Below, one piece after another: positions 3,755 to 60,105 of a stretch of DNA of 64,000 bases. A model generated the notes under the pieces. That model did not search any database and was not told where the DNA came from. It was given only the letters and a program-made list of their open reading frames with translations. Within the stretch, counting starts at the first letter, position 1; each line of letters begins with the position of its first letter. The translations under genes and the position numbers were made by a program. The stretch comes from Parapedobacter pyrenivorans (GTDB taxonomy: Bacteria; Bacteroidota; Bacteroidia; Sphingobacteriales; Sphingobacteriaceae), in contig NZ_BMER01000001.1 of the NCBI RefSeq assembly GCF_014636865.1, positions 2,654,718 to 2,718,717 on the forward strand. The letters are read 5' to 3'.

Positions 3755-3766
3755 TACGTCATTGCC

Positions 3767-3796
3767 CACACTACCCAAAAGGGGGGTGTGAGTTTT
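3767..3796 (+). terminator. Rho-independent terminator after the kinase gene
   Basis: Ten-base arms at 3767-3776 and 3781-3790 pair with one wobble and one mismatch around an AAAA loop, followed by AGTTTT. A -7-like TACCTTTA at 3810-3817 follows, so kinase and regulator may be separately transcribed although adjacent. Confidence 0.5.
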
Positions 3797-3821
3797 AATC
3801 GGCATTCCATACCTTTACGAT

Positions 3822-4442
3822 ATGATTCGCCTAGGCATTATAGAAGATGACGAAGAGATCAGGACTATGCTGGTTGATTTTTTCAAGGAACAGCCCGGTT
3901 TTTCATGCCTGCTGTCCGCATATTCGGTAGAAGCATTTTTCGAGCAGTGGAAAGCTGACATCTTTCTGGATATCGTCCTTTCTGACATCGGTCTCCCGGG
4001 AGAGTCGGGCATCCAGGGCGTAAAGCGCATCAAGAAGCACGCGCCGAAGTGCGAGGTGATCATGCTGACGGTCTATGACGATGCCAACCGTATATTCCAA
4101 GCCCTATGCAACGGGGCGTCTGGGTACCTGCTTAAGCAAACACCGTTGCAGAAAATCAAAGAGGCCGTGTTGTCACTCCATGAAGGCGGCGCGCCGATGT
4201 CGCCCGGCATTGCGCGGAAGGTGGTGGAATATTTCAATCCGAAGGGGACGACCGATCTTTACGAAAAACTGACCCCGCGCGAAGCGCAGGTGGTGGAAGC
4301 CATCGAGCAGGGCCTTACTAACAAAGAAGTGGCCATCCGGTTCGATATTTCCCTCGAAACGGTCAAATATCACATCAAAAACATCTACGAGAAACTGCAG
4401 GTCAATAGCCGCCATGCACTGATCAGCCGTAAGTACAAATAA
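3822..4442 (+). CDS. NarL/LuxR-type response regulator
   Basis: Cytoplasmic transcription factor and likely partner of the upstream kinase. The 206 residues hold an N-terminal receiver (about 1-120) with acidic pocket E8-D9-D10, phospho-acceptor Asp55 in VLSDIGLPG, Thr83 and Lys105 in GYLLKQTP, then a LuxR-type helix-turn-helix (about 145-200; LTPREAQVVEAIEQG, then KEVAIRFDISLETVKYHI). The start ATG lies five bases after a TACCTTTA element. The last 47 codons with the stop and the next nine bases are copied, with a single synonymous difference, at 15215-15365. The regulator itself is intact. Confidence 0.93.
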   Translation: MIRLGIIEDDEEIRTMLVDFFKEQPGFSCLLSAYSVEAFFEQWKADIFLDIVLSDIGLPGESGIQGVKRIKKHAPKCEVIMLTVYDDANRIFQALCNGASGYLLKQTPLQKIKEAVLSLHEGGAPMSPGIARKVVEYFNPKGTTDLYEKLTPREAQVVEAIEQGLTNKEVAIRFDISLETVKYHIKNIYEKLQVNSRHALISRKYK

Positions 4443-31830: not shown

Positions 31831-31964
31831 AATATTTTGTTTTTTACTGAAAATGCTTGATTGCATGCGTAATGTGTTAAAAATCTAAATATTATACGTG
31901 TGTTACCATACTATTCTTTATTTTCGGGGCGTGATTTTACAACGAACCATACGTGCAAGACGAT

Positions 31965-34900
31965 ATGAATTACAATAAAACGAACAACATCATTGGGTGG
32001 ATATGCGGATTGATTGCTACGATCGTATACGTATTGACCGTAGAACGTACCACTAGTTTTTGGGATACGGGTGAGTTTATTGCTTCGGCCTACAAAATGC
32101 AGATTGTACACCAGCCGGGTGCACCGTTGTTTCTGATGTTGCAGAACGTTTTTTCCAATTTGGCGTTCGGCAATGCCGAGCGTATCGCCTATTGGATGAA
32201 TATCGGATCTGCGGTATCCAGCGGATTGACCATCCTTTTTTTATTCTGGACGATTACGGCCTTGGCGCGCAAGGTGATATGGAAGCCGGGAACGGAGCTT
32301 ACGCAGGCCGGTCTGATCCGAATCATGGGCGCGGGAGCGGTTGGCGCCCTGGCTTATACCTTTTCGGATACGTTCTGGTTTTCGGCCGTAGAGTCTGAGG
32401 TGTACGCCATGTCATCCCTCTGCACTGCTGTGGTGTTTTGGGCAATTCTTAAATGGGAGGCCCATGCCGACGAGCCCGGCGCAGATAAATGGTTGCTGTT
32501 CATTGCTTATATTATGGGGTTGTCTATTGGCGTCCATTTGTTGAACCTGCTAGCGATCCCCGCGATAGCGCTGCTTGTCTATTTCAGGCGCACGAAACAG
32601 GCTACGAGCGGTGGCGCAATCAAGGCCTTGCTTATTGGTTGCTTGGTAGTGGCTGTTGTTCTTTGGGGAGTCATTCAATACCTCATCAAGTTTGCTGCTT
32701 ATTTCGATCTGTTTTTTGTAAATACGTTGGGCATGGGCTTTGGCTCTGGCGTGGTGGTATTTGCGTTATTGATCGTTGGTGGCACCGTTTACGGGATATG
32801 GTATTCCATCCAAAAGGCGAAGCCACTGCTCAATATTATTATGCTTTCATTCGCTTTTGTGGTTTTCGGCTATAGTTCGTTTGCCATGATCATGATTCGG
32901 GCCAAGGCCGATCCTACGTTGAATAACAGTGACCCGGATAATGTGTTTTCTATGCTTAGTTACCTCAACCGTGAGCAGTATGGTGATGAGCCTAAGCTCA
33001 AGGGGCCCTATTTCGATTCGCGTCCCGTAGACATTAGCTACGGGAGCAACATCTACCGCAAGGGTGCTGAAAAGTATGAAGTAGCGGGCAGAAATTTTGA
33101 CTACGTATACGACCGGGAGACGGTATTCCCACGGATACACAGCAGTAGGGAAGCTTCGCATCAGCAGTATTATCGGAGTTATTTGAACCTTGGTGAAAAT
33201 GAACAGCCGACTTTCGGTGACAACCTGCGTTTTTTCTTCAGCTACCAGATCGGGCATATGTATGGCCGGTATTTCCTGTGGAATTTCGTGGGCCGGCAGA
33301 ACGACCAACAGGGACATGGCGATCTCTCCACGGGGAATTGGATCAGCGGCATCAAGTTCATTGATCAGTTGCATGTCGGTGGGCAGGATGCCTTACCGGA
33401 GTCATTGAAATCTGATCCTTCCCATAACCGATTTTACTTCCTGCCCCTGATTTTAGGGCTTATCGGGGCATTTTGGCATTTTAAACGTCGCCAAAAAGAT
33501 GCCGGCGTCGTGGGCTTGCTGTTTTTCTTTACCGGTCTAGCCATTGTATTATACCTCAACCAGAATCCCCTCCAACCGCGCGAGCGCGACTATGCTTATG
33601 CAGGGTCTTTCTACGCATTTACCATTTGGATCGGTTTAGGCGTAATCGGTATCAGCGAATGGCTAACCAAGCTGAACGGAAAGACTGCCGCTGGGATAGC
33701 TACCGCTATTGGATTGCTGGCGGGGCCGGTGATTTTGGCGAAGGACGGGTGGGACGATCACGATCGCTCACAGAAGTCTCTTGCTCGCGATATTGCCATA
33801 GACTATCTGGAGTCATGCGCTCCGAATGCGATTTTGTTTACCTATGGTGATAATGATACCTATCCGCTTTGGTATGTGCAGGAGGTGGAGAATGTACGTC
33901 CGGATGTACGTGTGGTAAATCTGAGTCTGCTGAGCGCCGACTGGTATGTGCGCCAGATGACAAAAAAAGTGAATGAAGCGGAGGCGTTGCCCATTGACAT
34001 TCCGGAGGAAAAATACGTGAAGGGGGTACGTGACGTTATTTATTACCAAGACGCAAAAATCCCGGGTCCGGTTGAGCTCCGGAACATTGTTGCCTTAATG
34101 CTTTCAGATAATCCCAACGATAAGCGACAGGTGCAGAGTGAGCAGGCGGAGAATTTCTTGCCGACGAAGAGTCTGCAGTTGACGGTAGATAAGGATGCAG
34201 TAATTAGACATAACGTGGTACCTACCGTATGGCAGGACAGTATTGCAGACACGATCCAGTGGACGTATAATCGCAATTATGTGTCACGAGCGGAGTTGGC
34301 CATCATGGATATCTTGGTCAATAATAATTGGGAGCGGCCGATTTATTTTGCCACAACAGTGCCCAGCGATAATTTCATGGGCTTGGATAAGTATTTGGTA
34401 TCCGAGGGTTTCGCGCTTCGGCTTATGCCTATCAATATGGCGCCGAACACGTCGCAAGGATTGGTCAATGCGGATGCGGTTTACGACCACGTGATGAATA
34501 ACTATAAGTGGGGAAACATTAAAAATTCGCCATACATAGACCCAGAATCATACCGGATGATCAGCTTGATGCTGAACAATATTTACGCTGCACCAGCAGA
34601 AGCATTAATTGCCGAAGGTAAGAAGGAAGAGGCAAAAAAATTGCTGAACAACGCATTGGAATACATGCCCGAGCGGATTTACCGGATTATGGATGCCTAT
34701 GGTTATTCGTTTATTGCCGAAAACCTGTACGCTGTCGGTGAGATCGACAAGGCTAATGCATTGATCGAGCGAAATACAAACTACCTCGAAGAGCAGCTTC
34801 GGTATTACGCGGCCATTGCAGAAACCAAGCCCAACCTAGAAATGCAGAATATCCAGTATAGCATGTTTACGCTGAATAGGTTTGCTGAATCGGCAAAGGA

Positions 34901-34991
34901 AAACGGCCAAGAGGAACTGAGCGCCCGCATAACGAAGACTTTCAGTCAGTATGAGACGAGGTTTTTCGGCGGAATGCCGTCCGGTAATTAG
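31965..34991 (+). CDS. DUF2723 polytopic membrane protein, first paralog
   Basis: Large membrane protein of the DUF2723 group, which has the GT-C glycosyltransferase-like layout and is widespread in Bacteroidota; the exact acceptor is not established here. From ATG 31965 it has 1008 residues: about a dozen membrane helices in the first 650, the conserved first loop TTSFWDTGEFIASAYKMQI with acidic residues expected at a GT-C active site, QPRERDYAYAGSFYAF before the last helices, then a soluble C-terminal part ending in TPR-like helices. It is closely similar along its full length to 38399-41419, including WDxGEF, VESEVYAMSSLCTAVVFWAI and DNDT. Confidence 0.85.
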   Translation: MNYNKTNNIIGWICGLIATIVYVLTVERTTSFWDTGEFIASAYKMQIVHQPGAPLFLMLQNVFSNLAFGNAERIAYWMNIGSAVSSGLTILFLFWTITALARKVIWKPGTELTQAGLIRIMGAGAVGALAYTFSDTFWFSAVESEVYAMSSLCTAVVFWAILKWEAHADEPGADKWLLFIAYIMGLSIGVHLLNLLAIPAIALLVYFRRTKQATSGGAIKALLIGCLVVAVVLWGVIQYLIKFAAYFDLFFVNTLGMGFGSGVVVFALLIVGGTVYGIWYSIQKAKPLLNIIMLSFAFVVFGYSSFAMIMIRAKADPTLNNSDPDNVFSMLSYLNREQYGDEPKLKGPYFDSRPVDISYGSNIYRKGAEKYEVAGRNFDYVYDRETVFPRIHSSREASHQQYYRSYLNLGENEQPTFGDNLRFFFSYQIGHMYGRYFLWNFVGRQNDQQGHGDLSTGNWISGIKFIDQLHVGGQDALPESLKSDPSHNRFYFLPLILGLIGAFWHFKRRQKDAGVVGLLFFFTGLAIVLYLNQNPLQPRERDYAYAGSFYAFTIWIGLGVIGISEWLTKLNGKTAAGIATAIGLLAGPVILAKDGWDDHDRSQKSLARDIAIDYLESCAPNAILFTYGDNDTYPLWYVQEVENVRPDVRVVNLSLLSADWYVRQMTKKVNEAEALPIDIPEEKYVKGVRDVIYYQDAKIPGPVELRNIVALMLSDNPNDKRQVQSEQAENFLPTKSLQLTVDKDAVIRHNVVPTVWQDSIADTIQWTYNRNYVSRAELAIMDILVNNNWERPIYFATTVPSDNFMGLDKYLVSEGFALRLMPINMAPNTSQGLVNADAVYDHVMNNYKWGNIKNSPYIDPESYRMISLMLNNIYAAPAEALIAEGKKEEAKKLLNNALEYMPERIYRIMDAYGYSFIAENLYAVGEIDKANALIERNTNYLEEQLRYYAAIAETKPNLEMQNIQYSMFTLNRFAESAKENGQEELSARITKTFSQYETRFFGGMPSGN

Positions 34992-38398: not shown

Positions 38399-41300
38399 AT
38401 GAACATGGACTACCACAAAATCAACAACTTGAGCGGTTGGATCTGCGCCGCAATATCGACCACCATTTACATCTTGACCATGGAGCCTACTACCAGCTGG
38501 TGGGATGCCGGTGAGTTTATTGCGGCTGCACATCGTATGCAGATCGTACATCAGCCGGGTGCTCCCTTATTCCTGTTATTGCAAAACGTGTTTTCGCTGT
38601 TGGCGTTTGGTAATCCCGAGCGTATTGCTTATTGGATGAATTTCGGCTCGGCGCTTTCGAGCGGACTGACTATCCTATTCCTGTTTTGGACCATCACTGC
38701 CCTGGTGCGGAAAATGATTTGGCAAGCGGGTGCAAAACTTACTTCAATGGGATTGCTGCAAATCATGGGTGGCGGCGCCATTGGTGCCATGGCTTACGCC
38801 CTTTCGGATACATTTTGGTTTTCGGCTGTGGAGTCTGAGGTATATGCGATGTCGTCGCTGTGTACAGCAGTGGTATTCTGGGCGATACTAAAGTGGGAAG
38901 CGCGTGCTGATGACCCTGGTGCCAATCGGTGGCTGGTATTCATTGCCTATATTATGGGGCTATCACTCGGCATCCATTTGCTCAATTTGCTTACCATCCC
39001 TGCGCTGGCGTTGGTTATTTATTTTCGTAAGACGACGAAGGTCACGCTTGCCGGGGTTACAAAAACCTTTTTGATCGGATGTACGGTACTCGCATTCATC
39101 CTGTGGGGAGTTGTGCAGTACCTCGTGAAGTTTGCCGCATACTTCGATTTGTTCTTCGTAAATACACTGGGGATGGGGTTCGGATCGGGTGCGGTGGTGT
39201 TTGCAATCTGTGTGGTGGGGGCGTTGGGCTACGGGATTTGGTATTCGATGCAGCGGGCAAAGCCGATCCTCAATATCGCTTTGGTTTGCATGGGCTTCAT
39301 CATCTTTGGATACAGCTCTTTTGCCATGGTGCTCATCCGGGCAAAAGCGAATCCATTGCTGAATAACAGCCAGCCGGACGACGCTTTTTCGTTCCTCTGG
39401 TATTTGAATAGGGGGCAATTTGGGAGTGAACCCCTGGTTGGCGGCCCTTACTTCGACTCGCAGCTCATCGATATCAAGCAGGGTAGCAATGAATACCGGA
39501 AGGGAGAAACGAACTATGAGGTGGCCGGAACCGAAAATCATCCGGTTTATGACCGCACGACACTGTTTCCGCGTATTTATAGCACGCGCGACTTCCACCC
39601 CCAAGGCTACCGCGCTTGGTTGGGCCTTGGTGAAGGGGAGCAGCCAAGGCCGGTAGATAACCTCAAGTTCCTTACCGCCTATCAGCTTGGACACATGTAT
39701 TGGCGGTATTTTATGTGGAATTTTGCAGGACGCCAGAATGACCAACAGCCGCTTATTTCAAGCTACAGCGAAGGGAACTGGATAAGCGGTATTAATTTTA
39801 TTGACCAATGGCGGTTGGGCGGACAGGATAAACTCCCTGAAGCGGCGAAAACGGACCCATCTCGTAACGCCTTTTATTTTCTACCGCTCATACTTGGTGT
39901 GATGGGGTTAATCTGGCAGTTGAAACGCAGCCGAATGGATATGGCGGTAGTGGGGCTGTTGTTCTTTTTTACCGGGTTGGCCATTGTGCTTTATCTCAAC
40001 CAATCTCCCCTGCAACCCCGGGAACGGGACTACGCGTATGCGGGATCGTTTTATGCCTTCGCGATATGGATAGGCATGGGGGCAGTGGCGCTCGCAGATT
40101 TGCTAAAGCGAAGCTGGAACCAGCGGCTGGCAGTGTCGGTAGCCATAACGGTTGGTTTGTTTGCCGTGCCGATATTGATGGGGGTGGAGGGATGGGACGA
40201 CCACGACCGTTCGCAGAAATACATGGCGCGGGATATGGCACGCAATTACTTGGAATCCTGTGCACCAAACGCCATTCTGTTTACATACATAGATAACGAT
40301 ACGTTCCCGCTGTGGTACCTGCAAGAGGTGGAAGGCGTACGACGGGATGTGCGTGTAGTGAACCTTAGTTTGCTGGGTATGGATTGGCAGGTGCGGCAAA
40401 TGAAGGAACCGGCCGAAGGATACGAGGCACTACCAATAAGCATGGCAGATCACCAGTTTGCAAAGGGGACCCGTGATGTGCTTTATTACCATGATTATGG
40501 TATTCAGGATTCCGTGGAATTGCAAAAGCTGCTCGCGCTACTGCTGTCGGACAATCCCTCCGACCAATTGGTGTATTCGAACGGCGATCGGAGAAATTTC
40601 CTGCCCACGAAGAATTTTAAACTCACAGTGGATAAAGAGCAGGTGTTAAAACACCATGTCGTTCCAGAAAAGTGGCATGATAAAATCGTGGACACGATGT
40701 TTTGGACCTATGATCACGATATGGTGACCCGTTCGGAACTGACTTTAATGGACATCCTTGTGCATAACGAATGGAAGCGGCCGATTTACTTTACAGCCAC
40801 CATGCCGACAAGCCAACGTCTCGGACTGGATGATTACCTGGTGTCTGAAGGTTTCGCGCTGAGGCTGATGCCGGTACGGGCTCGGAACGAAAGCGGTGCT
40901 GGTCATCTGGTCAATCCGGATAACGCATATGAGAACGTCATGCATAAATTTACTTGGGGAAATATGAAGGATGCACCGTATTTGGATCCAACTTCGTACG
41001 CGCTGGTAGGGCAATCGTTAAAGGTCTTTTCGGATACCGCCGAAATGCTCATTACGGAGGGAAGGAGAGAAGCTGCCAAGGATGTCGTGAACCGGGCTGT
41101 GCAGGTATTGCCGGAACGTATACCTTTGGTGGGGCTTGCTGGCCAATATCCGGTCTTGGCCGCGCAGCTTTACGAACTTGGAGAAACGGCTAAAGCCAAC
41201 GCATTGGTGGAGCGGAATGTGCGTTTTTTGGACGAGCAGCTTGCTTATTATGCGGCCATTGCTGAGACCAAACCCAATGTGGAAGGGCAGGCGATCCGTG

Positions 41301-41419
41301 ATAGTTTAGTGGCGTTGGAGCAGTTTGCTTTCGCTGCTGAAGCGCATGGACAGCCGGATCAGCAACGGGCGGCAAGGGGGATTTTTGACCGGTATCGTTT
41401 ACATTTTTTTGGATCTTGA
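38399..41419 (+). CDS. DUF2723 polytopic membrane protein, second paralog
   Basis: Full-length paralog (1006 residues) of the protein at 31965-34991, with the same helix layout, WDAGEFIAAAHRMQI loop, QPRERDYAYAGSFYAF segment and TPR-like C-terminal end. Differences are spread over the length rather than clustered, so this is an old duplication rather than a recent copy. Here the gene is followed, with stop and start overlapping by one base (TGATG), by an Asp-box propeller protein. That gives it a translational partner the first paralog lacks. Confidence 0.85.
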   Translation: MNMDYHKINNLSGWICAAISTTIYILTMEPTTSWWDAGEFIAAAHRMQIVHQPGAPLFLLLQNVFSLLAFGNPERIAYWMNFGSALSSGLTILFLFWTITALVRKMIWQAGAKLTSMGLLQIMGGGAIGAMAYALSDTFWFSAVESEVYAMSSLCTAVVFWAILKWEARADDPGANRWLVFIAYIMGLSLGIHLLNLLTIPALALVIYFRKTTKVTLAGVTKTFLIGCTVLAFILWGVVQYLVKFAAYFDLFFVNTLGMGFGSGAVVFAICVVGALGYGIWYSMQRAKPILNIALVCMGFIIFGYSSFAMVLIRAKANPLLNNSQPDDAFSFLWYLNRGQFGSEPLVGGPYFDSQLIDIKQGSNEYRKGETNYEVAGTENHPVYDRTTLFPRIYSTRDFHPQGYRAWLGLGEGEQPRPVDNLKFLTAYQLGHMYWRYFMWNFAGRQNDQQPLISSYSEGNWISGINFIDQWRLGGQDKLPEAAKTDPSRNAFYFLPLILGVMGLIWQLKRSRMDMAVVGLLFFFTGLAIVLYLNQSPLQPRERDYAYAGSFYAFAIWIGMGAVALADLLKRSWNQRLAVSVAITVGLFAVPILMGVEGWDDHDRSQKYMARDMARNYLESCAPNAILFTYIDNDTFPLWYLQEVEGVRRDVRVVNLSLLGMDWQVRQMKEPAEGYEALPISMADHQFAKGTRDVLYYHDYGIQDSVELQKLLALLLSDNPSDQLVYSNGDRRNFLPTKNFKLTVDKEQVLKHHVVPEKWHDKIVDTMFWTYDHDMVTRSELTLMDILVHNEWKRPIYFTATMPTSQRLGLDDYLVSEGFALRLMPVRARNESGAGHLVNPDNAYENVMHKFTWGNMKDAPYLDPTSYALVGQSLKVFSDTAEMLITEGRREAAKDVVNRAVQVLPERIPLVGLAGQYPVLAAQLYELGETAKANALVERNVRFLDEQLAYYAAIAETKPNVEGQAIRDSLVALEQFAFAAEAHGQPDQQRAARGIFDRYRLHFFGS

Positions 41420-44265: not shown

Positions 44266-47200
44266 ATGTTTAATCGGATTTATCAGTTAGGTATTGTGTT
44301 TTGTTTGGTGGCATCAATTGCTGTGGCACAACAAAGCGCATGGCAGGAAGTCAATCAGGCATACAAAACCGGAATGGAGTTGTATGAAAAGGGGAAGTAT
44401 GCCGCGGCAGCCAAGCATTTCGACCAGGTCGAAGCGATACGGATAAATTCTACGATGCAACAGGATGAGCATGTTGAATTGACGCTATTGAAGGAAAACG
44501 CTCGTTTTTACCAGGCTATTTGTGCGTTGGAATTGGGGGAATCGGATGCCGAGGGCCATTTCCTTCGGTATATCAAAGACTATCCGGCCAGTGCGAATTC
44601 CAAGGCTGCTTATTTTCAGGTAGGGAGATCCTATTTTGGAAAAAAAGACTATGAGCATGCGTTGGAATGGTTCAATAAACTCGATAGTCGGAATTTAGCT
44701 GGTCGGGAGAATAGGGAGTTTCGCTATAAGCAAGGCTATTCTTTTTTTATGACGGATGATTATGCTTCAGCCAAACCACTTTTCGAAACCCTTAAGGATG
44801 AAGGTGGCGTCTACCAGGAAGCATCGATCTATTATTATGCCTACTTAAGTTACCTGGACCGAGAGTTCAAAACAGCATTGACGGAATTCGAGAAGCTGAA
44901 AGGATCAAAGACCTACGAAGCGACCTATCCGTATTACATTACGGCACTTTATTATCTTGACAATCGATACGACGATGTGCTGACTTATGCCTTGCCGATA
45001 TTGGAAAATACCAAACAGGTTCATGAAACCGATATGTTCCGTATTATTGCCGCTACCTATTTTGCTAAGAACGATTTCGAAAGTGCGGCGGAATACTATG
45101 ATAAATTCCAGGCAGGAGATCAAGGTAAGACGCAAAACAACCAAGACAGTTATCAGATCGGTTACATTGCTTATAAAAACGGGGATTATGAAACGGCTAT
45201 TGCTGAGTTGCAAAAGCTGGAGGAGCCCGATGCCTATTACCAAAGCGCTATGATCGCGTTGGGTGATGCATTTCTGAAAAGCGGAGACAAACAGAGTGCG
45301 CGTAATGCGTTCTTTAAGGCATCCAAACTGGACTTCGATGCCGCATTGAAGGAAGAAGGGCTTTTCAACTATGCTAAATTGTCATCCGAACTCGAATTCC
45401 ATCAGGTGGCCCTCGAGGCCGCGAAAGAATATTTGGATACCTACCCAAAAACCAGCCGACTGGAAGATGCAAAAACATTGTATGCCGAGACCCTTTTAGG
45501 CACAAGTAATTACCGCGCTGCGGTGGATATCCTTGAATCGATCAAGAACCGCGGGCCTGAGGCAGATGCTGCCTACCAACGCGTAACGTATTACCGCGGA
45601 TTGGAATTTTACAATGAACGTGCGTTTGAAAATAGTATCTCACTATTTATGCGTTCCGAGCAGTATCCGATTGATCCACATATTACTGCCTTGGCTGCCT
45701 ATTGGAAGGCAGAAGCGATGTATGAGGTGCGTAAGTATGGTGAAGCTGTTCAGAACTTTTCGCGCTTCCTGCGGCTTCCTGCCGCGCGCAATACCGATGT
45801 CTATAGCTATGCAAACTATGCGTTGGCATATGCTGCATTCCGGAATGATAGCTTCAATACATCCGCCAATTACTTTGAACGGTTCCTCTCTACGGGTGGC
45901 AACGCGATTGAACCTAATGTGCGCAATGACGCTATTGCACGTCTTGGTGATTCTTATTTTTCGATGCGCAATTACGGCCGGGCGATGCAGTACTACGATC
46001 GACTGATTAACAGCAAGGCCCAAAGCCAGGATTATGCACTATTCCAACGTGGAATCATCCAAGGGTTGCAGGGTAGCAACGAGACTAAGATTAACACCTT
46101 ACGTTCCGTCGTTGAGCGATTCCCAAATTCCAACTATGCCGATGACGTGGCATTTGAGATTCCCTACACCTATTTTACAATGGGTGATTATGAAACGGCC
46201 ATCCAAGGTTTACAACAGATGATCGAACAATATCCCCGAAGCAGTTATGCACCTAGGGCATTGATGACCATTGGCCTTGTACAATACAACAAAGACGATA
46301 CCGAGGGTGCGATGGCCACGTTCAGAAAGGTGGTGGAAGAGCATTCCACAACCGACGAGGCCAGGCAAGCCCTGCGCTCCATTGAAAACATTTATTTGGA
46401 CCGTGGTGATGCTTCGGCGTACATCAATTATGCGACTAGTACCAATATCGGCGACTTATCGAAGGCTGAACAGGATAATCTCGCGTTTCAGGCCGCTCAT
46501 ACCCTGTTTGCGCGGGGCGAATACCAGGGAGCCGTGGAAGCCATTAATGCTTATTTTGATAAGTTCCCGAAACCGATACAGGAGAAGCATGCTCGGTACA
46601 TACGTGGTGTTAGCTATTATAGGACCGGCCACCCGAAAGAGGCGTTGCATGACCTTAATATCATCCTGAATGATTGGACGAGCCAATACACGGAAAACAC
46701 GCTGCTTACGGTATCCGAGCTCTACCTTGGTCTGGAACAGTATAATGAAGCTATTGTCCACCTCAAAAAATTGGAGCTTACTTCGGAATATAAATCGAAC
46801 TACGGTTATGCAGTCAATAACCTGATGGTTTGCTACGACAAGATCGGTGATATGGAGCAGGTGGTCAAGTATGCGGAGTTGATTAAGGCATATGACCGTT
46901 CGTCGGAGGAAGACATCGCTAAAGCCCACCTCTATACGGCGCGTGCGATGCTCATGAAAGGGGAAGTTCCACCAGCGCTGAAAGAACTTAATCTTGCAGC
47001 ACTGAAAAGTCAGACCATTGTCGGTGCTGAAGCCCGCTATCGGGTTGGCCAATTGCAGTACGAGGCGAAAGAGTATGATAAGGCGATCGAATCGGCGTTT
47101 GAGGTGATCAACAATATGGCGTCGTATGAATATTGGGTAGCCAAGAGTTTTATCCTGCTTGCGGATGCGTATGCCGGCAAAGGGGATGATTTCCAAGCGA

Positions 47201-47298
47201 AGAGTACCTTGGAAAGTGTCATCGAAAACTATGAAGGGGAGGATGACATCATCCCTTCGGCAAAGGAACGGCTAAATAAACTCAATAATAAGGAATAG
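44266..47298 (+). CDS. Periplasmic TPR protein, full-length parent
   Basis: Scaffold-type protein of 1010 residues with a signal peptide (IYQLGIVFCLVASIAVAQ) and TPR repeats over nearly its whole length (for example ANSKAAYFQVGRSYFGKKDY, NSNYADDVAFEIPYTYFTMG, PRALMTIGLVQYNKDD, DLNIILNDWTSQYTENTLL). It heads a cluster with an outer-membrane barrel, a HU/SPOR protein and ExbB, ExbD and TonB, so it probably works in the periplasm with a proton-driven envelope machine. Residues from about 258 to the end have a full second copy in the next gene. Confidence 0.88.
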   Translation: MFNRIYQLGIVFCLVASIAVAQQSAWQEVNQAYKTGMELYEKGKYAAAAKHFDQVEAIRINSTMQQDEHVELTLLKENARFYQAICALELGESDAEGHFLRYIKDYPASANSKAAYFQVGRSYFGKKDYEHALEWFNKLDSRNLAGRENREFRYKQGYSFFMTDDYASAKPLFETLKDEGGVYQEASIYYYAYLSYLDREFKTALTEFEKLKGSKTYEATYPYYITALYYLDNRYDDVLTYALPILENTKQVHETDMFRIIAATYFAKNDFESAAEYYDKFQAGDQGKTQNNQDSYQIGYIAYKNGDYETAIAELQKLEEPDAYYQSAMIALGDAFLKSGDKQSARNAFFKASKLDFDAALKEEGLFNYAKLSSELEFHQVALEAAKEYLDTYPKTSRLEDAKTLYAETLLGTSNYRAAVDILESIKNRGPEADAAYQRVTYYRGLEFYNERAFENSISLFMRSEQYPIDPHITALAAYWKAEAMYEVRKYGEAVQNFSRFLRLPAARNTDVYSYANYALAYAAFRNDSFNTSANYFERFLSTGGNAIEPNVRNDAIARLGDSYFSMRNYGRAMQYYDRLINSKAQSQDYALFQRGIIQGLQGSNETKINTLRSVVERFPNSNYADDVAFEIPYTYFTMGDYETAIQGLQQMIEQYPRSSYAPRALMTIGLVQYNKDDTEGAMATFRKVVEEHSTTDEARQALRSIENIYLDRGDASAYINYATSTNIGDLSKAEQDNLAFQAAHTLFARGEYQGAVEAINAYFDKFPKPIQEKHARYIRGVSYYRTGHPKEALHDLNIILNDWTSQYTENTLLTVSELYLGLEQYNEAIVHLKKLELTSEYKSNYGYAVNNLMVCYDKIGDMEQVVKYAELIKAYDRSSEEDIAKAHLYTARAMLMKGEVPPALKELNLAALKSQTIVGAEARYRVGQLQYEAKEYDKAIESAFEVINNMASYEYWVAKSFILLADAYAGKGDDFQAKSTLESVIENYEGEDDIIPSAKERLNKLNNKE

Positions 47299-50095
47299 AA
47301 ACTTGAACGGACGATGATAGCGCAAGAATCGATCGGCTACAAATACTTGCTTACCGGAGCTTTTTCGGTATTGCTAGCCGTAGGCTATGCGCAGGAGGAA
47401 GAGGAACAGATCGAACTGGAACGGCAAGAACAGCAACCGCCAACTGAACAACAGGGAGTGAGGGAGCCTGCTACGATAGATTCGATCGATGTGGTGCGCG
47501 ACTACCGGCCGATGTTGGCGGATGCCGTAAAGATTCGCCGAAGCCCTGACATGCGTATCGACCGGCAGGCACTTGAGACCGAGTTGCGTCGGATAGCCGC
47601 TACCACTTATTTCGCAAAGAACGCATTCAGAAAGCCTTATTACGGGAGCTTGCAAAAACGGCATCAGGAAGCGACGCCGAACAACATAAATAACTACCGG
47701 ATTGCTTACTTGGCATACGAGAATGGTGAATACGAAAGAGCGACCACCATTTTTGAAAAACTGGAAACTTCAGATGCCTTTTACCAAGGCTCGATGATTG
47801 CGTTGGGCAATATTTTTCTGGAAACCGGCGATAAACAAAGGGCACGGAATGCATTTGTCAAGGCGTCCGAACTGGATTTCGACCAGGCATTGAAAGTAGA
47901 CGGACTGTTTAATTACGCCAAACTCTTGTATGAACTGGACTCCGCAGCGGCTGCCGTGGAGGTCGCCCTGAAATATGTTCAGGAATATGCGGTTATCGCT
48001 CCGGGTGCGGAAAAGAACGAGAGCCCCGAAACCTTATTGGCTGAAATCCTGTTGGGTACGAGCAATTTCGAGGCGGCCGTAAATATGCTGGAATCATTCA
48101 CCAACAGGGATAAGGAAGCCGATTTGACCTATCAAAAGGTAGCGTATTATCGTGGATTGGAATTCTACAACGAACGGGCATTTGAAAACAGTATTTCCCT
48201 GTTTATGCGGTCGGAAGAGTTTCCCATTGATCCGCGGATAGCCGCATTGGCTACCTATTGGAAAGGGGAGGCAATGTATGAAGTGCGGAAATATACAGAA
48301 GCTGTACAGGCGTTTTCCCGTTTTCTCCGGATGCCTGCCGCCCCAGAAACCGACGTATACAACTATGCAAATTACGCGTTGGCATATGCGTCCTTTCGCA
48401 GCAACAGTTTCAATACGGCTGCCAGACATTTTGAACTTTTTTTGTCTACCGATGGTCGTTCGATGGAAAATAACGTGCGAAACGATGTCATCGCACGTTT
48501 GGGTGATTCGTATTTGACGATGCGTGATTATGGCCGGGCCAACCAATACTATGACCAACTGATTAACAGCAAAGCCCCTAATCAGGACTATGCACTGTTT
48601 CAGCGCGGTATTATCCAAGGATTGGAAGGTGACAATCAGACAAAAATGAGTACGCTTCGCTCGGTGACCGATCAGTTTCCGAATTCAAATTATGCCGATG
48701 ACGTAGCCTTTGAAATCCCGTACACACATTTCACGATGGGCGATTACGATACGGCTATTGAGGGGCTGCAGCGGATGATTGAAAAATACCCACGCAGTAG
48801 CTACGCCCCACGGGCGCTGATGACGGTCGGCCTGGTACAATATAATCAGGGAGATAGAGAAACGGCCATGGCTACATTCAGAAGGGTGGTGGAGGAACAT
48901 TCCACCACCGGTGAGGCCCGACAGGCGCTGCGTGCTATCGAAAGTATGTACCTGGATAGCGGCGATGCATCGGGTTACGTCAACTATGCAACCAGCTCGA
49001 ACCTCGGCGACCTGAGCAACGCGGAGCAGGATGACCTGACATTCCAGGCTGCACACACGCTGTTTTCCCGCGGACAATACCAGGCGGCGGTTGAAGCCAT
49101 TAATGCTTATTTCGATAAATTTCCAAACCCCATCCAGGAGAAACATGCCCGGTACATCCGCGGGGTAAGCCTGTACCGTACCGGCCATCCGAAGGAAGCG
49201 CTGCACGACCTGAATATCATCTTGAATGACTGGACCAGCCAGTATACCGAAAACACGCTGCTTGCGGTGGCGGATTTGTACCTCGGGCTTGAACAATATA
49301 ACGAGGCAATTGTGCACCTCAAAAAACTAGAGCTCACATCAGAATACGAAGCCAGTTATGGGTATGCCGTAAACAACCTGCTGGTCTGCTACTATGAAAT
49401 CGGCGATATAGAGCAAGTACTCAAATATGCCAAGTTGATTAAAGCATATGACTGGTCGGCTGAAGAAGACATCGCCAAAGCTCATCTGTATACCGGTCGG
49501 GCGCTGCTGCGGGAGGGAAATTCTACGGAAGCGGCCAAGGAGATGAACCTGGCAGCGTTAAAAAGCCAGACGGTGACGGGTGCCGAAGCACAGTACAACC
49601 TTGCACAGCTACAATATAAGGGCAAAAGATATGACAAGGCAATCGAAAGTGCCTTTGACGTGATTAACAACCGGTCGTCGTACGACTATTGGATGGCCAA
49701 AAGCTTCATCGTGCTGGCCGATGCCTATGCCGGCAAAGGGGATGATTTACAGGCGCAGCGTACGTTGGAGAGCATAATCGAAAATTACGAGGGCGAGGAT
49801 GATATCATTCCTTCGGCCAAGGAGCGTTTACAGAAATTGAATAATAAATAACAGGAATTTTAACGGGTTATGATCTTTCAGAAATCAATGCGATACGGGT
49901 ACTTGCTTACCGGGATTTTGTCGGGGACGCTCATGGTTGGATATGCACAGGAGGAAGCGCAGAAAGACGGACGGCCTGCTACGATTGATTCCATTGATGT
50001 GGTACGCGATTACCGGCCGATATTGGCAGATGCCGTGAAGATACGGCAGAGCCCGGATATGACCAATAAAAGACAATATCAACCCGAATTGACGT
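45037..50095 (+). repeat. Old tandem duplication, two units of about 2.5 kb
   Basis: Unit 1 runs from 45037 (TPR parent, codon 258) through the stop and 15-base spacer into the barrel-type start at 47314-47587. Unit 2 runs from about 47590 through 49851 and an 18-base spacer into the barrel gene start, to about codon 74. The spacers also look alike (AACTTGAACGG and AATTTTAACGG before ATGAT). Order parent-chimera-barrel is exactly what a tandem copy of the middle of a two-gene pair gives. Confidence 0.85.
47314..49851 (+). CDS. Chimeric TPR protein: N-terminus of the barrel gene joined to the TPR parent
   Basis: The 845 residues have two origins. Residues 1 to about 91 resemble the first 74 residues of the downstream barrel protein: same signal peptide pattern (YLLTGAFSVLLAVGYAQEE) and the strongly conserved PATIDSIDVVRDYRPMLADA and SPDM stretches. 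From R93 (RIAATTYFAKN) to the end it follows residues 258-1010 of the upstream TPR protein at equal length (753 residues). The join is near 47587. It keeps an intact frame, a secretion signal and good ends, so it is probably functional, with its TPR array brought under the barrel's N-terminal segment. A Q/E-rich insertion (about 28-48) is its own. Confidence 0.88.
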   Translation: MIAQESIGYKYLLTGAFSVLLAVGYAQEEEEQIELERQEQQPPTEQQGVREPATIDSIDVVRDYRPMLADAVKIRRSPDMRIDRQALETELRRIAATTYFAKNAFRKPYYGSLQKRHQEATPNNINNYRIAYLAYENGEYERATTIFEKLETSDAFYQGSMIALGNIFLETGDKQRARNAFVKASELDFDQALKVDGLFNYAKLLYELDSAAAAVEVALKYVQEYAVIAPGAEKNESPETLLAEILLGTSNFEAAVNMLESFTNRDKEADLTYQKVAYYRGLEFYNERAFENSISLFMRSEEFPIDPRIAALATYWKGEAMYEVRKYTEAVQAFSRFLRMPAAPETDVYNYANYALAYASFRSNSFNTAARHFELFLSTDGRSMENNVRNDVIARLGDSYLTMRDYGRANQYYDQLINSKAPNQDYALFQRGIIQGLEGDNQTKMSTLRSVTDQFPNSNYADDVAFEIPYTHFTMGDYDTAIEGLQRMIEKYPRSSYAPRALMTVGLVQYNQGDRETAMATFRRVVEEHSTTGEARQALRAIESMYLDSGDASGYVNYATSSNLGDLSNAEQDDLTFQAAHTLFSRGQYQAAVEAINAYFDKFPNPIQEKHARYIRGVSLYRTGHPKEALHDLNIILNDWTSQYTENTLLAVADLYLGLEQYNEAIVHLKKLELTSEYEASYGYAVNNLLVCYYEIGDIEQVLKYAKLIKAYDWSAEEDIAKAHLYTGRALLREGNSTEAAKEMNLAALKSQTVTGAEAQYNLAQLQYKGKRYDKAIESAFDVINNRSSYDYWMAKSFIVLADAYAGKGDDLQAQRTLESIIENYEGEDDIIPSAKERLQKLNNK

Positions 50096-51606
50096 ATAAT
50101 ATCCTCGATAAGAAGCTGGATATCAATACAGGTACGAAGCGATTGACAATTCAGGAAATGCCCTTCTCACGAACCCAAACGCTAACCAATAACTATGCGA
50201 AGATTGGAGCGGGTAATCTGGGCACGCTGCTGGGCGAGGTTTACTTGAGCTCTGACTATTGGGTGGATACCCGGTTGGGCGGGTATGTGAAGCACCTGAA
50301 CCAGCAGGGGACGATTGAGGAACAGAAGTTTTCTTCGCAACAAATCGGCGTATTTGGACGAACAGTGCTTGGGCCGGTTACTTTGGATGGTGAAGTGGGT
50401 TTCAACCGTTACGGCACCCGGTTTTATGGTACGGTAGCAGACCTCGACGGCGCATCGCTGAATGCCAGCCCGGCCAAACAGGCATTCAATGATATCTATT
50501 TTACCGGAGAGCTGACGAGCAACTATGACGAGGGGGCTTCGGATGCGTTCAGCTACTCACTTAAAGCCGATGCCTATAGCTATAGCAATGCCTACGATAC
50601 GAAGGAAAGTTCTTTTGCATTGGCCGGCTATATCAACAAGCAGATTAACGTATTTAATGTGGGCGCCAATATCTCCGGTGACTTTACATCAGTGAAAGAT
50701 GCCGCTTACAGCCTTGGAAATCATATCGGCCGGATTAATCCCTATATACGGTTTCAGGGGCCTAATTACAATATCACACTAGGTGCCAATTTCGTAGCGG
50801 AGTTCGGCGACTCCTCACGGACCAATATTTTTCCGTCCGCAGAAGTTGATTTCGCGCTGATTCCGCAGTTTGCCCATATTTTTGGGGGGATCAATGGTGA
50901 CGTAAACAGGACATCTGTTAAGGAACTGACCAAAGAAAATCCTTGGCTAGCAGCATTGGGGACGGATAATTACATCCGGAATTCCGTGGATCGCATGTAC
51001 GTGTTCGGCGGTATCAAGGGGAATGCTGGGGCTACCTTCGGCTATAAAGTGAAGGCGTTCTATAGGCGGATTGAGAGTATGCCGTTTTATGCCATCGCTC
51101 CAGGTACGCCCTATGCGTTCAATCTTATTTATGAAGACGGGGATAATGCAAGCACGATCGTGGGATTGGAGGGCGAGCTGAATGTCCGCATTTCGGAGGT
51201 GGTGACAGTGGGCGGTAGGTTGAACTTCAATGAGTTCGATCTTCAGCAGCAAGAGGAGGCTTGGTATATGCCCAAAATGCGGCTCGCGGCCAATGCACGT
51301 TTCAATATCAGCGACAAGCTGTATGTGGATGGTGAACTTCTTTTCCAAGGACAGACCTATGGATTGGTTAACGATGCCGGCGTGGGCCTTGGCGACTACG
51401 CCATCACCGAGATAGGCGATGCGGGGGCGCGTAAGGTGACAATACCCTCGTTTGCCGATTTGAGTGCGGGAGCCGAATACCGTGCAACTGATCGTATCGG
51501 AATCTATGTAAGATTGAATAATATGTTGGGTAATGATTACGAGCGTTACTTGTTTTACCCCAGGTTGGGCTTGAATGTCATCGGCGGCATTAATTTTTCA
51601 TTTTGA
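49870..51606 (+). CDS. Outer-membrane beta-barrel protein (TonB-dependent-receptor-like)
   Basis: The 578 residues have a signal peptide (YLLTGILSGTLMVGYAQ), a conserved N-terminal PATIDSIDVVRDYRPILADA segment, and a sequence of alternating beta strands ending GLNVIGGINFSF, with terminal phenylalanine typical of barrel proteins. No full plug domain or TonB box can be recognised, so it is not a standard nutrient receptor. Position among TPR, SPOR and ExbB/D/TonB genes suggests a structural or energised envelope role. Its first 74 residues were copied into the preceding chimeric gene. Confidence 0.82.
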   Translation: MIFQKSMRYGYLLTGILSGTLMVGYAQEEAQKDGRPATIDSIDVVRDYRPILADAVKIRQSPDMTNKRQYQPELTYNILDKKLDINTGTKRLTIQEMPFSRTQTLTNNYAKIGAGNLGTLLGEVYLSSDYWVDTRLGGYVKHLNQQGTIEEQKFSSQQIGVFGRTVLGPVTLDGEVGFNRYGTRFYGTVADLDGASLNASPAKQAFNDIYFTGELTSNYDEGASDAFSYSLKADAYSYSNAYDTKESSFALAGYINKQINVFNVGANISGDFTSVKDAAYSLGNHIGRINPYIRFQGPNYNITLGANFVAEFGDSSRTNIFPSAEVDFALIPQFAHIFGGINGDVNRTSVKELTKENPWLAALGTDNYIRNSVDRMYVFGGIKGNAGATFGYKVKAFYRRIESMPFYAIAPGTPYAFNLIYEDGDNASTIVGLEGELNVRISEVVTVGGRLNFNEFDLQQQEEAWYMPKMRLAANARFNISDKLYVDGELLFQGQTYGLVNDAGVGLGDYAITEIGDAGARKVTIPSFADLSAGAEYRATDRIGIYVRLNNMLGNDYERYLFYPRLGLNVIGGINFSF

Positions 51607-51663: not shown

Positions 51664-52692
51664 ATGAATTTGGGTTTGTGTATAGCGAATTTGTTGAGGC
51701 GATACCCAGCTGTGGAGGTGCCAGGGATCGGTGTGTTTAGGAAAACGTACGTTTCCGCATTCTATGATGAAGCGCGATCTGCTTTTCTTCCGCCAGCAAA
51801 CCGCATCGAATTGACGGAAGAGCATACCGATGTATTTCCGATAACCGGATACCTGCAAGCGCAACAACAAGTTGATGGGGCTACGGCTTCGCGTATTTTG
51901 GACGGGGCAGTAAAGGAAGTCATGGAGGCCATTAGCCGCAATGGTCAAGCGTTATTGGACGGCCTTGGTTATTTGTTTCCCGATGGCGCGTCGTTTATAT
52001 TTGAACCGTTGAAAAACGATGATTTCCATTGGAAACCGATAAGCGCAGGGCCACCTGCCACAGGCGAGAAGGTCGCAATTGGGGAAGTGGAGACCCCATT
52101 AATTGAAGGCGGAGAACCTGAATCGGCAGTATCCACTGAAGAATACTCCGGTAGGGGTCGTACGACGCGGTGGATGATCGCTGCTGTATTGTTGGTGCTA
52201 TTGGTTGGTGTCGCCGCAATTTGGTATTTCCAGCCCGCCTTGTTCGATCGCACGGCGATAGCCGGATTTTTCGGACGGGCGGAGGTGCAACACCGTCAGT
52301 CAGCTAATCAAGAACCACCCGTAGCGGAAATTCCGTTGGTTGAAAGTAAGGCCGATTCGGTTGCCAAAGATACGGTCCAAGCAACGGCTTCGGCAATCGA
52401 TAGTATCCCTGTTGAGCGTATACCGGACGCAAAAATTGTGACGGAAAAGCCGTCCGTAACTTATGAGATTATCGTAGGGTCATTTGCCACTATGGCACAG
52501 GCAAGGAAATTTGTAGCTGATATGAAAGCGAAAGGGTACGATCTCCAAGCCATTGATAGCAAGATGCCGGGTAACCGGAAGAAGATAAGCTGGGGATCAT
52601 ATGCTACCGAAGAAGAAGCCTACCGGGAGCTGGCAAGGGTGCAGAAGAATTTCGAGCCCGGTGCATGGATTGCTAAAGTTGCACACGATTAG
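51664..52692 (+). CDS. HU-like/SPOR-domain envelope protein
   Basis: Bitopic inner-membrane protein of 342 residues. The N-terminal part (about 1-125, LCIANLLRRYPAVEVPGIGV; GLGYLFPDGASFIFEPL) resembles the HU-type domain of CCDC81-like bacterial proteins. One membrane helix follows (about 170-189, AAVLLVLLVGVAAIWYF), then a linker, and a C-terminal SPOR domain (about 267-339, YEIIVGSFATMAQARKFV, ISWGSYATEEEAYREL) that should bind denuded peptidoglycan at division sites. It precedes exbB in the same direction with a 47-base gap. Confidence 0.87.
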   Translation: MNLGLCIANLLRRYPAVEVPGIGVFRKTYVSAFYDEARSAFLPPANRIELTEEHTDVFPITGYLQAQQQVDGATASRILDGAVKEVMEAISRNGQALLDGLGYLFPDGASFIFEPLKNDDFHWKPISAGPPATGEKVAIGEVETPLIEGGEPESAVSTEEYSGRGRTTRWMIAAVLLVLLVGVAAIWYFQPALFDRTAIAGFFGRAEVQHRQSANQEPPVAEIPLVESKADSVAKDTVQATASAIDSIPVERIPDAKIVTEKPSVTYEIIVGSFATMAQARKFVADMKAKGYDLQAIDSKMPGNRKKISWGSYATEEEAYRELARVQKNFEPGAWIAKVAHD

Positions 52693-52739: not shown

Positions 52740-53441
52740 ATGTCACTATTACAACAAGACACCATTTACCCGCTTGACACGTTAGCGGGAGCAGCGCAGC
52801 AAACAGTAGAACTCGCCAATGAAAAAATAAGCCTGATCGGCTTGCTCTTCAAAGCGGGATGGATCATGATCCCTTTGGCATTATTACTCTTTGCCACGTT
52901 GGTGATATTCATAGAACGTTACCTCACGATAAAGAAAGCTTCAAAATACGATCCAAGCCTGATGTCGCACGTGAAGCAAAGCGTGCTTTCGGGTAGGTTG
53001 GATGGTGCGTTGTCAGTTTGTCGGGCAAGTAATAGTCCGTTGGGAAGGATGCTCGAAAAAGGACTGGTGCGTATAGGACGGCCCATTAAGGATATTGAGG
53101 GAGCGATAGAGAACATCGGTAAGCTAGAAGTTGCCCGATTGGAGAAGAATCTTAACATACTCAGCATCATCGCTGCTGTTGCGCCTATGTTAGGTTTCGT
53201 TGGAACGATTTTCGGTGTTATTATCATCTTCAGGGATGTAGAGGCCGCAGGTGGTATTGATATCGCGAGCGTGTCGGGTGGGTTGTATGTGAAGATGATT
53301 GCTTCGGCCGCAGGATTGACGATTGGTATCTTGGCATTTGCCGGATACCATTGGTTGAATACCATGCTTGAGCGATTGATTCTCCGGATAGAAACGGATG
53401 CCATTGAATTTGTTGACTTATTGGATGAACCGGGTTCATAA
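52740..53441 (+). CDS. MotA/TolQ/ExbB proton channel subunit
   Basis: Inner-membrane component that uses the proton gradient to energise TonB- or TolA-like proteins. The 233 residues show the first membrane helix (MIPLALLLFATLVIFIERYL), a cytoplasmic loop (NSPLGRMLEKGLVRIGRP), and the conserved AAVAPMLGFVGTIFGVIIIF and KMIASAAGLTIGILAFAGY helices. It is followed after 11 bases by exbD. The adjacent TPR, SPOR and barrel genes make a TolQ-like role as plausible as an ExbB role. Confidence 0.94.
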   Translation: MSLLQQDTIYPLDTLAGAAQQTVELANEKISLIGLLFKAGWIMIPLALLLFATLVIFIERYLTIKKASKYDPSLMSHVKQSVLSGRLDGALSVCRASNSPLGRMLEKGLVRIGRPIKDIEGAIENIGKLEVARLEKNLNILSIIAAVAPMLGFVGTIFGVIIIFRDVEAAGGIDIASVSGGLYVKMIASAAGLTIGILAFAGYHWLNTMLERLILRIETDAIEFVDLLDEPGS

Positions 53442-53452
53442 ACTTTTTGGGC

Positions 53453-53860
53453 ATGAATTTAAGAGCGAAACGAAATAAATCAGAGGTTAGGGTCTTTACG
53501 GATTCCCTGAATGATATCATGTTTTTCCTGATGTTGTTTTTCCTGCTGGCGTCCGCGGTTGCTAATCCCCAGGTGGTAAAATTATTGCTGCCGCGCTCCA
53601 GCGCCGGAGAGCAGTCTGTTGCCAAAAAGACACTTACCGTATCCGTAACCCAGGATCTGAAATATTACCTGGATAAGGAGGAAGTACCGTACGATAACCT
53701 GTTGAATGCGATCCAGGCCTATGTGCAGCCGGGAGAGGATCTTACCGTGATGCTCTACGCCGACAGTACGGTGCCTATCCAAAATGTAATTTCAGTAATG
53801 GATGTTGCCAACAAGCTGAAAATACGGCTGGTGTTGGCTACGGAGCCATTGCGCGAATGA
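53453..53860 (+). CDS. ExbD/TolR-family biopolymer transport protein
   Basis: The 135 residues from ATG 53453 (MNLRAKRNKSEVRVF) have one membrane helix (about 25-42, MFFLMLFFLLASAVANP), preceded by the conserved DSLNDIM with the aspartate needed for proton flow, and a periplasmic domain (about 55-133; LTVSVTQDLKYYLDKEEVP, VMLYADSTVPIQNVISVMD). It partners the ExbB-like protein just upstream. Confidence 0.93.
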   Translation: MNLRAKRNKSEVRVFTDSLNDIMFFLMLFFLLASAVANPQVVKLLLPRSSAGEQSVAKKTLTVSVTQDLKYYLDKEEVPYDNLLNAIQAYVQPGEDLTVMLYADSTVPIQNVISVMDVANKLKIRLVLATEPLRE

Positions 53861-53929: not shown

Positions 53930-54751
53930 ATGGGTTATTATCATTTACAAGAAGACAACAACTATCCTAAAGCACTGTGGATATCAAGTGCAGTGATGGG
54001 GGTATTGTTGATTCTTAGCTTTATTATCATGATCGGATCGGCTTTCCCGGATATCGGAACCGGGGGCATCATTGTCAACTATGGTACGTCCGAAGTCGGG
54101 ATGGGCGACGATTACATGACAGTCGACGAGGCATCTATGGATCCGAATGCGAATAACGTGAGGCCAGATAAGATTGACCCGGAGCAGGAAACCCAAGCCA
54201 CGCCTTCGCAGCAGGTTACGGAGCGCAGTGTTGCTACGCAGGATATGGAAGATGCGCCTGCTGTAGTCGCCAATGAGCCAAAAAAGGCCAATGCGGAAGA
54301 GGCCACGGTGGAAAAGAAGGACAGTAAACCTGCAGTCAATCCGAATGCCCTTTATACCGGAAAGCGTAACAACGCTACAGGCAGGGGAGACGGCACCGGA
54401 GCAACCGGCGGCAATCAAGGCAGCAACCAGGGCGATCCACTTTCTCCGGATTATGGCGAGGGCGGTTCGGGAGACGGCGATATGGGCCTTTCCATCCAAA
54501 ATCGTGGCTGGGCGGTGCCACCTGATATTGAAGATAACGGCCAGCAGGCCGGTGTGGTGATGGTGGAGGTCCGCGTGGCTCGCGATGGCCGGATCACGTT
54601 TGCCCGTGTAAGCCTAAGAGGAACAACATTGACCGATAAATCGTTATGGGATAAATGCGAACGTGCAGTAAGGGGGGCGAGGTTTAACGAGATCGAACGG
54701 GCGCCGCGAGAGCAACGTGGATTAATCCCGTTTAGATTCAAATTAAAATAA
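53930..54751 (+). CDS. TonB-like energy transducer
   Basis: The 273 residues have an N-terminal cytoplasmic tip (MGYYHLQEDNNYPKALW), one membrane helix (about 17-38), a long acidic/polar linker with glycine-rich stretch, and a TonB-type C-terminal domain (about 180-273, GVVMVEVRVARDGRITFARV, then ARFNEIE). It lacks the usual Pro-rich linker, having E/D/N-rich and GDG-rich sequence instead, closer to a TolA-like spacer. It follows exbD by 69 bases and precedes folC. Confidence 0.88.
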   Translation: MGYYHLQEDNNYPKALWISSAVMGVLLILSFIIMIGSAFPDIGTGGIIVNYGTSEVGMGDDYMTVDEASMDPNANNVRPDKIDPEQETQATPSQQVTERSVATQDMEDAPAVVANEPKKANAEEATVEKKDSKPAVNPNALYTGKRNNATGRGDGTGATGGNQGSNQGDPLSPDYGEGGSGDGDMGLSIQNRGWAVPPDIEDNGQQAGVVMVEVRVARDGRITFARVSLRGTTLTDKSLWDKCERAVRGARFNEIERAPREQRGLIPFRFKLK

Positions 54752-60043: not shown

Positions 60044-60105
60044 CTATAAAAAATCCGATTAAGGAATTTTTGAATTGTTAAAAAAAAAAATGGCTATAAT
60101 TGGAG

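Follow-up and report, generated by a model that had tools for sequence, protein, structure and literature searches.

Chimeric genes can form at the join point of a tandem duplication whose breakpoints lie inside two genes, and chimeras of this origin have reportedly been found in Drosophila. A fused gene usually comes to notice only when its birth is long past and the birthplace has been erased. Single genes that spread horizontally without a visible carrier form another class, recognized by patchy presence, foreign base composition and varying neighbours. The gene described here, B, resembles both classes. As in tandem-duplication chimeras, its locus has the order parent-chimera-parent, with halves of both neighbours, copied spacers and an in-frame join; unlike them, B appears to have moved away from where it arose, taking remnants of both parents along, and to have reached other genera. 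Like carrier-less horizontally spread genes, B is patchy, has a foreign base composition and changes neighbours, but the scars flanking it record its place of origin. The ancestor, birthplace, departure scars and landing places of B all seem to be readable in living genomes, which makes the formation of a gene, its gain of an upstream region and its spread directly testable. We consider it likely that B was born in an ancestor of Parapedobacter, departed and spread.

The parents of B, a TPR protein (A) and a barrel-like protein (C), recall two further systems. TonB-dependent transporters carry an N-terminal TonB box (PMC6434023). C likewise has an N-terminal EEIxVV..Y motif near its putative barrel and is followed by genes for ExbB, ExbD and a TonB-like protein; in contrast to these transporters, C has no plug or TonB_dep_Rec match, and B has the motif and no barrel. 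CpoB/YbgF-type periplasmic TPR proteins belong to Tol-Pal (PMC12204202, on Tol-Pal and Bacteroidetes). A and B similarly exceed the TIGR02795 cut-off of 90.1 bits (179.2 and 147.1 bits, respectively, with many repeats summed), and ExbB/ExbD are encoded in the conserved locus; however, A and B are much longer than CpoB/YbgF, and the nine genes searched for and read in that locus include neither tolB nor pal. The family possesses a conserved, uncharacterised TPR-barrel-ExbBD-TonB-like locus, in which a short motif is a candidate docking signal. A literature search by title and start of abstract returned no paper on chimera B.

The A-B-C locus

The window, meaning the whole 64,000-nucleotide stretch of Parapedobacter pyrenivorans DNA that was analysed, belongs to a genome of 5.9 Mb in 11 contigs (G000; G, L and g numbers denote genomes, stretches and genera, respectively). 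A, B and C are adjacent open genes on one strand, at the places given in the preliminary description. The features of the locus are as follows:

44266..47298, + strand: A, the TPR parent, 1010 aa, with a signal-peptide-like N-terminal stretch (by eye) and a TPR array
45025..47292, + strand: portion of A (residues ~254-1009) matching the TPR part of B, from alignment with the join placed by eye
47299..47313, + strand: A-B spacer, like the A-C spacer of relatives
47314..49851, + strand: B, the chimera, 845 aa
47314..47568, + strand: C-derived part of B (residues 1-85, from the alignment score), with a signal-peptide-like stretch, an E/Q-rich linker and the motif
47479..47553, + strand: conserved 25-residue motif DSIDVVRDYRPMLADAVKIRRSPDM, TonB-box-like by resemblance only
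47575..49848, + strand: A-derived TPR part of B, residues 88-845
49852..49869, + strand: B-C spacer
49870..51606, + strand: C, barrel-like protein, 578 aa, mainly beta strands predicted at very low confidence
49870..50076, + strand: N-terminal part of C (residues 1-69), which by alignment was copied into B
51664..52692, + strand: HU-CCDC81/SPOR domain protein of the conserved locus
52740..53441, + strand: ExbB/TolQ-type channel protein
53447..53860, + strand: ExbD/TolR-type protein
53930..54751, + strand: TonB-like protein (TIGR01352 tonB_Cterm at 22.8 bits, E 8.6e-5, short of the cut-off of 27.1; nothing in Pfam)

Membership of A and B in the TPR class is indicated by TPR models above their cut-offs together with a helical-repeat structural model. 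The name 'barrel' for C derives from its strand pattern and from the preliminary description. C matches no Pfam or NCBIfam family at E 0.001, neither plug nor TonB_dep_Rec among them, and no solved relative at E<=10, and its structural model, with a mean pLDDT of 33.2, is too poor to use. In the window genome there is no further copy of A besides B, and the N-terminus of C occurs only in C and B, plus one chance-level match (E 0.69).

The ancestral arrangement is preserved elsewhere in the family. Thirty-eight A-C stretches from Parapedobacter (g1), Sphingobacterium (g16), g15 and g17, six genomes occurring twice, were searched for nine genes. The whole order pyrR-pyrB-A-(B)-C-SPOR-ExbB-ExbD-TonB-like is present in 34 of them; the rest (L010, L049, L050, L051) are truncated where the stretch or contig ends. 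The undivided A-C pair, with gene order otherwise unchanged, is found in relatives, as expected from the two-gene ancestor that the preliminary description had postulated.

Probable origin of B from two neighbours

The two halves of B are homologous to both of its neighbours, and the order is parent A, chimera, parent C. Alignment of B residues 1-85 with C residues 1-69 gives a BLOSUM62 score of 201, against a highest value of 53 in 1000 shuffles. With the signal-peptide part removed, the score is 145 vs 56 for shuffles; the likeness therefore extends beyond the signal peptide, which rules out a similarity confined to it. The corresponding DNA (47466-47553 in B and 49974-50061 in C) is 84% identical over 88 nt. 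The remainder of B is derived from A: residues 78-845 align with A residues 244-1009 at 73% identity. The likeness of the N-terminus of B to that of the barrel protein had been noted in the preliminary description, which also gave the TPR part as 753 residues equal in length to A residues 258-1010, joined at residue 258. The fusion of A and C and the derivation from A stand, with two corrections. The equality of length is only approximate, since two small indels (2 and 4 aa) separate A and B, and the join lies slightly upstream, by eye between C residue ~69 and A residue ~253-254.

The spacers bear the same signature. The A-B and B-C spacers are alike in three genomes, and both resemble, by eye, the A-C spacer of three relatives without a tandem B, which extends the spacer resemblance first described in the window. 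The birth of B by one tandem duplication, running from mid-A to the N-terminal part of C, is thus a well supported reading of these comparisons. In an ancestor of Parapedobacter, the duplicated segment would have begun at A codon ~254, taken in all of A beyond that point plus the spacer, and ended at C codon ~69, and this single event would have yielded A-B-C, with B consisting of C's N-terminus on A's TPR array. That the gene order reflects duplication of the middle of a TPR-barrel pair had been proposed from the window; the ancestor, the halves, the spacers and the tree agree with it.

Distribution and surroundings of displaced copies

B is present in at least 72 of 301 family genomes, a hand count of 71 listed matches spanning residue <=54 to >=818 of B, plus G006. 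Among the matches listed plus G006, it occurs in 9/9 genomes of Parapedobacter, 4/5 of g15, 56/68 of Sphingobacterium, 2/2 of g17 and 1/1 of g19; among the matches listed, the other genera of the 301 genomes have no B. A class-wide survey of 395 genomes gave, among the matches listed, only G000 and G023 as aligning from before residue 50. All 20 genomes read from other genera have exactly one full-length B and exactly one A.

B lies inside the A-C locus only in Parapedobacter, in four of nine genomes (G000, the window; G003; G007; and G006, in which B is interrupted by a contig break), and is unlinked to A-C in the other five (G001, G002, G004, G005, G008). Altogether, B is away from A-C in 25 of the 29 genomes read. 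A chimera without its neighbours had been named as a finding that would speak against the model. Such copies do occur, in five of the nine Parapedobacter genomes and in four other genera, but the model stands: many of these copies carry scars of A and some of C, as described in the following section, and all 29 B read group with Parapedobacter A.

When a permissive rule is applied, 16 different surroundings are distinguished among the 25 displaced copies, and no gene is common to all displaced B loci. The ends of the displaced unit vary between copies. In the close relatives G171, G297 and G174 (L065, L067 and L068, respectively), B is found on opposite sides of the same 361-aa gene: G171 has it on the other side of this neighbour than G174 and G297, a local change of place, and the unit in common comprises ~155 bases upstream and gene B. 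The sequence TAGTTTTG, which may resemble a Bacteroidetes -7 element, is present ~90 bases before the start in 12/25 displaced and 0/4 tandem B.

Several vehicles were considered. Searches by tblastn returned three plasmid records at 25.5-27.0% identity, whose matches begin no earlier than residue 88, and one phage record at 25.4%; the N-terminal part is missing from all four. A scan of IMG/VR viral contigs, with a reach of close relatives only, returned no chimera. Plasmid, phage or viral carriage is a candidate for which these searches gave no record with the chimera. Rpn/PDDEXK_2 fragments (PF12784 scan) lie directly beside displaced B in 2/25 loci, G001 (L046, ~8000-8450) and G022 (L058, ~3160-3980), too few to claim them as the vehicle; in G001, the reading frame of B continues from the PDDEXK_2 fragment. 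In G267, B lies between 477-bp direct repeats (L070, 5200-5673 and 8892-9366; 87%) that form part of a regulator-like gene, and these could be the trace of a single-crossover integration.

Remnants of A and C beside displaced copies

Displaced copies of B are often preceded by an upstream scar that resembles A's last bases joined to the A-B spacer. A few are followed, after the stop, by a downstream scar in which the B-C spacer leads into the opening codons of C. Significance was assessed with 1000 dinucleotide shuffles and a threshold of p<=0.01. At this threshold, the upstream scar is found in 15/25 copies (Parapedobacter 4/5, g15 2/4, Sphingobacterium 9/13, g17 0/2, g19 0/1), the downstream scar in 3/25 (G008, G022, G076) and a scar on either side in 16/25. 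The nine copies with neither, at p<=0.01, include the three of g17 and g19, G267, G023 and G085.

In all 11 other-genera copies with a score of at least 35, the upstream scar is nearer to Parapedobacter A tails than to the host's own A tail. The same 11 scars are on average nearer to Parapedobacter A tails than to Parapedobacter B tails, making the tail of B, as an alternative source, on average the poorer fit in each case. The scars would find a simple explanation only in an origin of the displaced copies from an A-B-C arrangement. One lineage of B would have remained between A and C (G000, G003, G007, G006), while the other would have departed carrying, on its upstream side, ~40-50 bp from the end of A together with the A-B spacer; on the downstream side, some of its copies would also have kept the B-C spacer and C's first codons.

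Phylogenetic position of B

The tree of the TPR part was built from 760 columns, 44 A and 29 B sequences, one B being partial. All 29 B form one clade (100/100) within Parapedobacter A. The joint clade of B and Parapedobacter A has support of 80.3/95, and the nesting inside the genus 59.5/80 and 80.1/92. Tandem B forms a clade (99.2/100). Its sister clade (99.9/100) unites displaced Parapedobacter B with every B from the other genera, the latter branching from within the displaced Parapedobacter copies (97.3/100). The phylogeny suggested in the preliminary description accordingly groups B with Parapedobacter A, not outside all A.

AU tests were performed on 64 of the 73 sequences, nine outgroup A being dropped, with constraint trees from a fast search, whose own unconstrained tree did not come out best among those compared. 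A position of B outside all A of five genera, with those A monophyletic, is rejected (delta lnL 170, p 7e-70), which rules out an ancient duplication as the origin of B. Monophyly of Parapedobacter B is also rejected (p 0.0008), whereas monophyly of Parapedobacter A (p 0.075) and of displaced Parapedobacter B (p 0.17) is not rejected. Because of these two non-rejections, the exact birth node and the direction of first export out of Parapedobacter are not fixed by the tree and rest partly on the scars.

A chimera that predates these genera, was passed down vertically at an unlinked place and in a few Parapedobacter species ended up between A and C through chance or a recombination event would account for B being unlinked in 25/29 genomes read, in several genera. 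This reading is scarcely credible given the AU rejection above and the A and C scars that flank displaced copies. Moreover, in 20/20 other-genera B the N-terminus is nearer to Parapedobacter C than to host C, and the TPR part nearer to Parapedobacter A than to host A.

Probable movement between genomes, and selection

Birth by duplication in Parapedobacter would have been followed by movement. Displaced copies of B appear to have passed between genomes, as suggested by their low synonymous divergence, their GC3 and their varied surroundings. Pairs of displaced Parapedobacter copies have a pS of 0.16-0.39 in B, vs 0.53-0.89 for eight neighbour genes (pyrR missing in four G001 pairs), and B is lowest in 10/10. 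G024 (g17) and G267 (Sphingobacterium) share 91.8% identity in B vs 66.6% in A. In 16/20 other-genera hosts, B has a higher GC3 than the host's own A and C; its GC3 is not raised in G023, G085, G270 and G026. The displaced lineage would have acquired a different upstream region, relocated repeatedly, and passed among Parapedobacter species and into other genera; we infer both this succession of steps and Parapedobacter as the point of departure.

The displaced lineage might instead have gone through an unsampled outside donor after its birth in Parapedobacter and then come back, so that displaced Parapedobacter copies would also be recipients. The very low synonymous divergence of displaced Parapedobacter pairs and the unrejected monophyly of displaced Parapedobacter B (p 0.17) fit this course, which we regard as unlikely, because the fuller tree places other-genera B inside displaced Parapedobacter B (97.3/100) and the GC3 of B is Parapedobacter-like in most foreign hosts.

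Tandem copies also diverge little at synonymous sites. Their pS is 0.46-0.67, the lowest in 5/6 pairs and level with pyrR in one, a pattern not predicted by strict vertical descent in place. When window positions 47314-49851 are compared with L004 and L005, third-position divergence is far lower in tandem B than in flanking A and C, and the drop is confined to B. One possibility is interspecies exchange through the flanking A and C sequence. Slow synonymous change under codon or RNA constraint, in place of transfer, would explain why tandem copies show the drop as well and why, in G000/G003, it affects B alone; however, it gives no account of the contrast between B and A in G024/G267, the GC3 mismatch or the tree, and is highly improbable as the cause of the low divergence of B.

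The dN/dS comparison envisaged for the duplicated part yields omega of 0.05-0.21 for B in 15 pairs, from which it follows that B has been kept by selection, in line with the earlier reading of an in-frame fusion maintained in this way. For A, omega is 0.01-0.05 in the four pairs where dS is computable, saturation preventing its computation in most. Amino-acid change is faster in B than in A in 6/6 tandem pairs.

Possible function of B

The 25-residue motif is present in 29/29 B, with a mean identity of 0.865 (28 full-length copies) vs 0.759 for TPR windows, 24/147 of which are as conserved as the motif. The linker before it ranges from 10 to 34 residues. In C, the N-terminal motif recurs in every genus read, for example as EEIEVVRPYKPVLADA, and is found in 42/44 by pattern; the remaining two have EEIIVNGTYKPVLA and EEIVVTTAYKPVLADA by eye. 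By eye, the motif of C and of the B tail resembles LDEVVVVGYG, the box of a SusC-like protein in the window. The model of B has a mean pLDDT of 76.8, with residues 1-108 under 50, and its matches in the PDB are generic helical repeats with TMq of at most 0.35.

In the simplest reading, the motif would dock C on the TonB-like protein, and B, a soluble TPR array whose tail is disordered, would bear this tag too. B would then be a secreted periplasmic TPR scaffold whose flexible N-terminal tail bears C's TonB-box-like motif and docks on the partner that normally reads it, most likely the TonB-like protein (three genes past C) or A itself, so as to tune or compete with A-C. We put this role forward tentatively. 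The preliminary description had suggested that the shared N-terminal segment could bring the TPR array to the barrel's partner; what the comparison shows of this segment is its conservation in 29/29 B.

B may alternatively be no more than a spare copy of A that gives dosage, targeted by the tail of C, with an N-terminus that serves export alone. The copied segment includes a signal-peptide-like stretch, and B's TPR part is close to A both in length and in the kind of fold, but the motif lies beyond the signal peptide and is retained in 29/29 B even though the preceding linker varies. We hold the dosage reading to be rather doubtful. A scaffold of the docking kind could also be an envelope module that roams as a single gene: a soluble TPR scaffold, tagged with a TonB box, for the A-C-ExbBD-TonB-like machine of any host in the family. 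It would be advantageous on arrival, be limited to one copy per genome, and move as a gene with its promoter but no dedicated carrier, the remnants of A and C at its ends possibly serving as homology arms. This extension is speculative and fairly unlikely.

Other features of the window

Two TMEM260-like (PF11028) proteins of ~1010 aa, perhaps paralogues, are encoded 3.4 kb apart at positions 31953-34991 and 38399-41419 of the window. At 60100-62406, DUF4886 and a sulfatase with its C-terminal domain occupy one 768-aa frame, apparently a fused enzyme.
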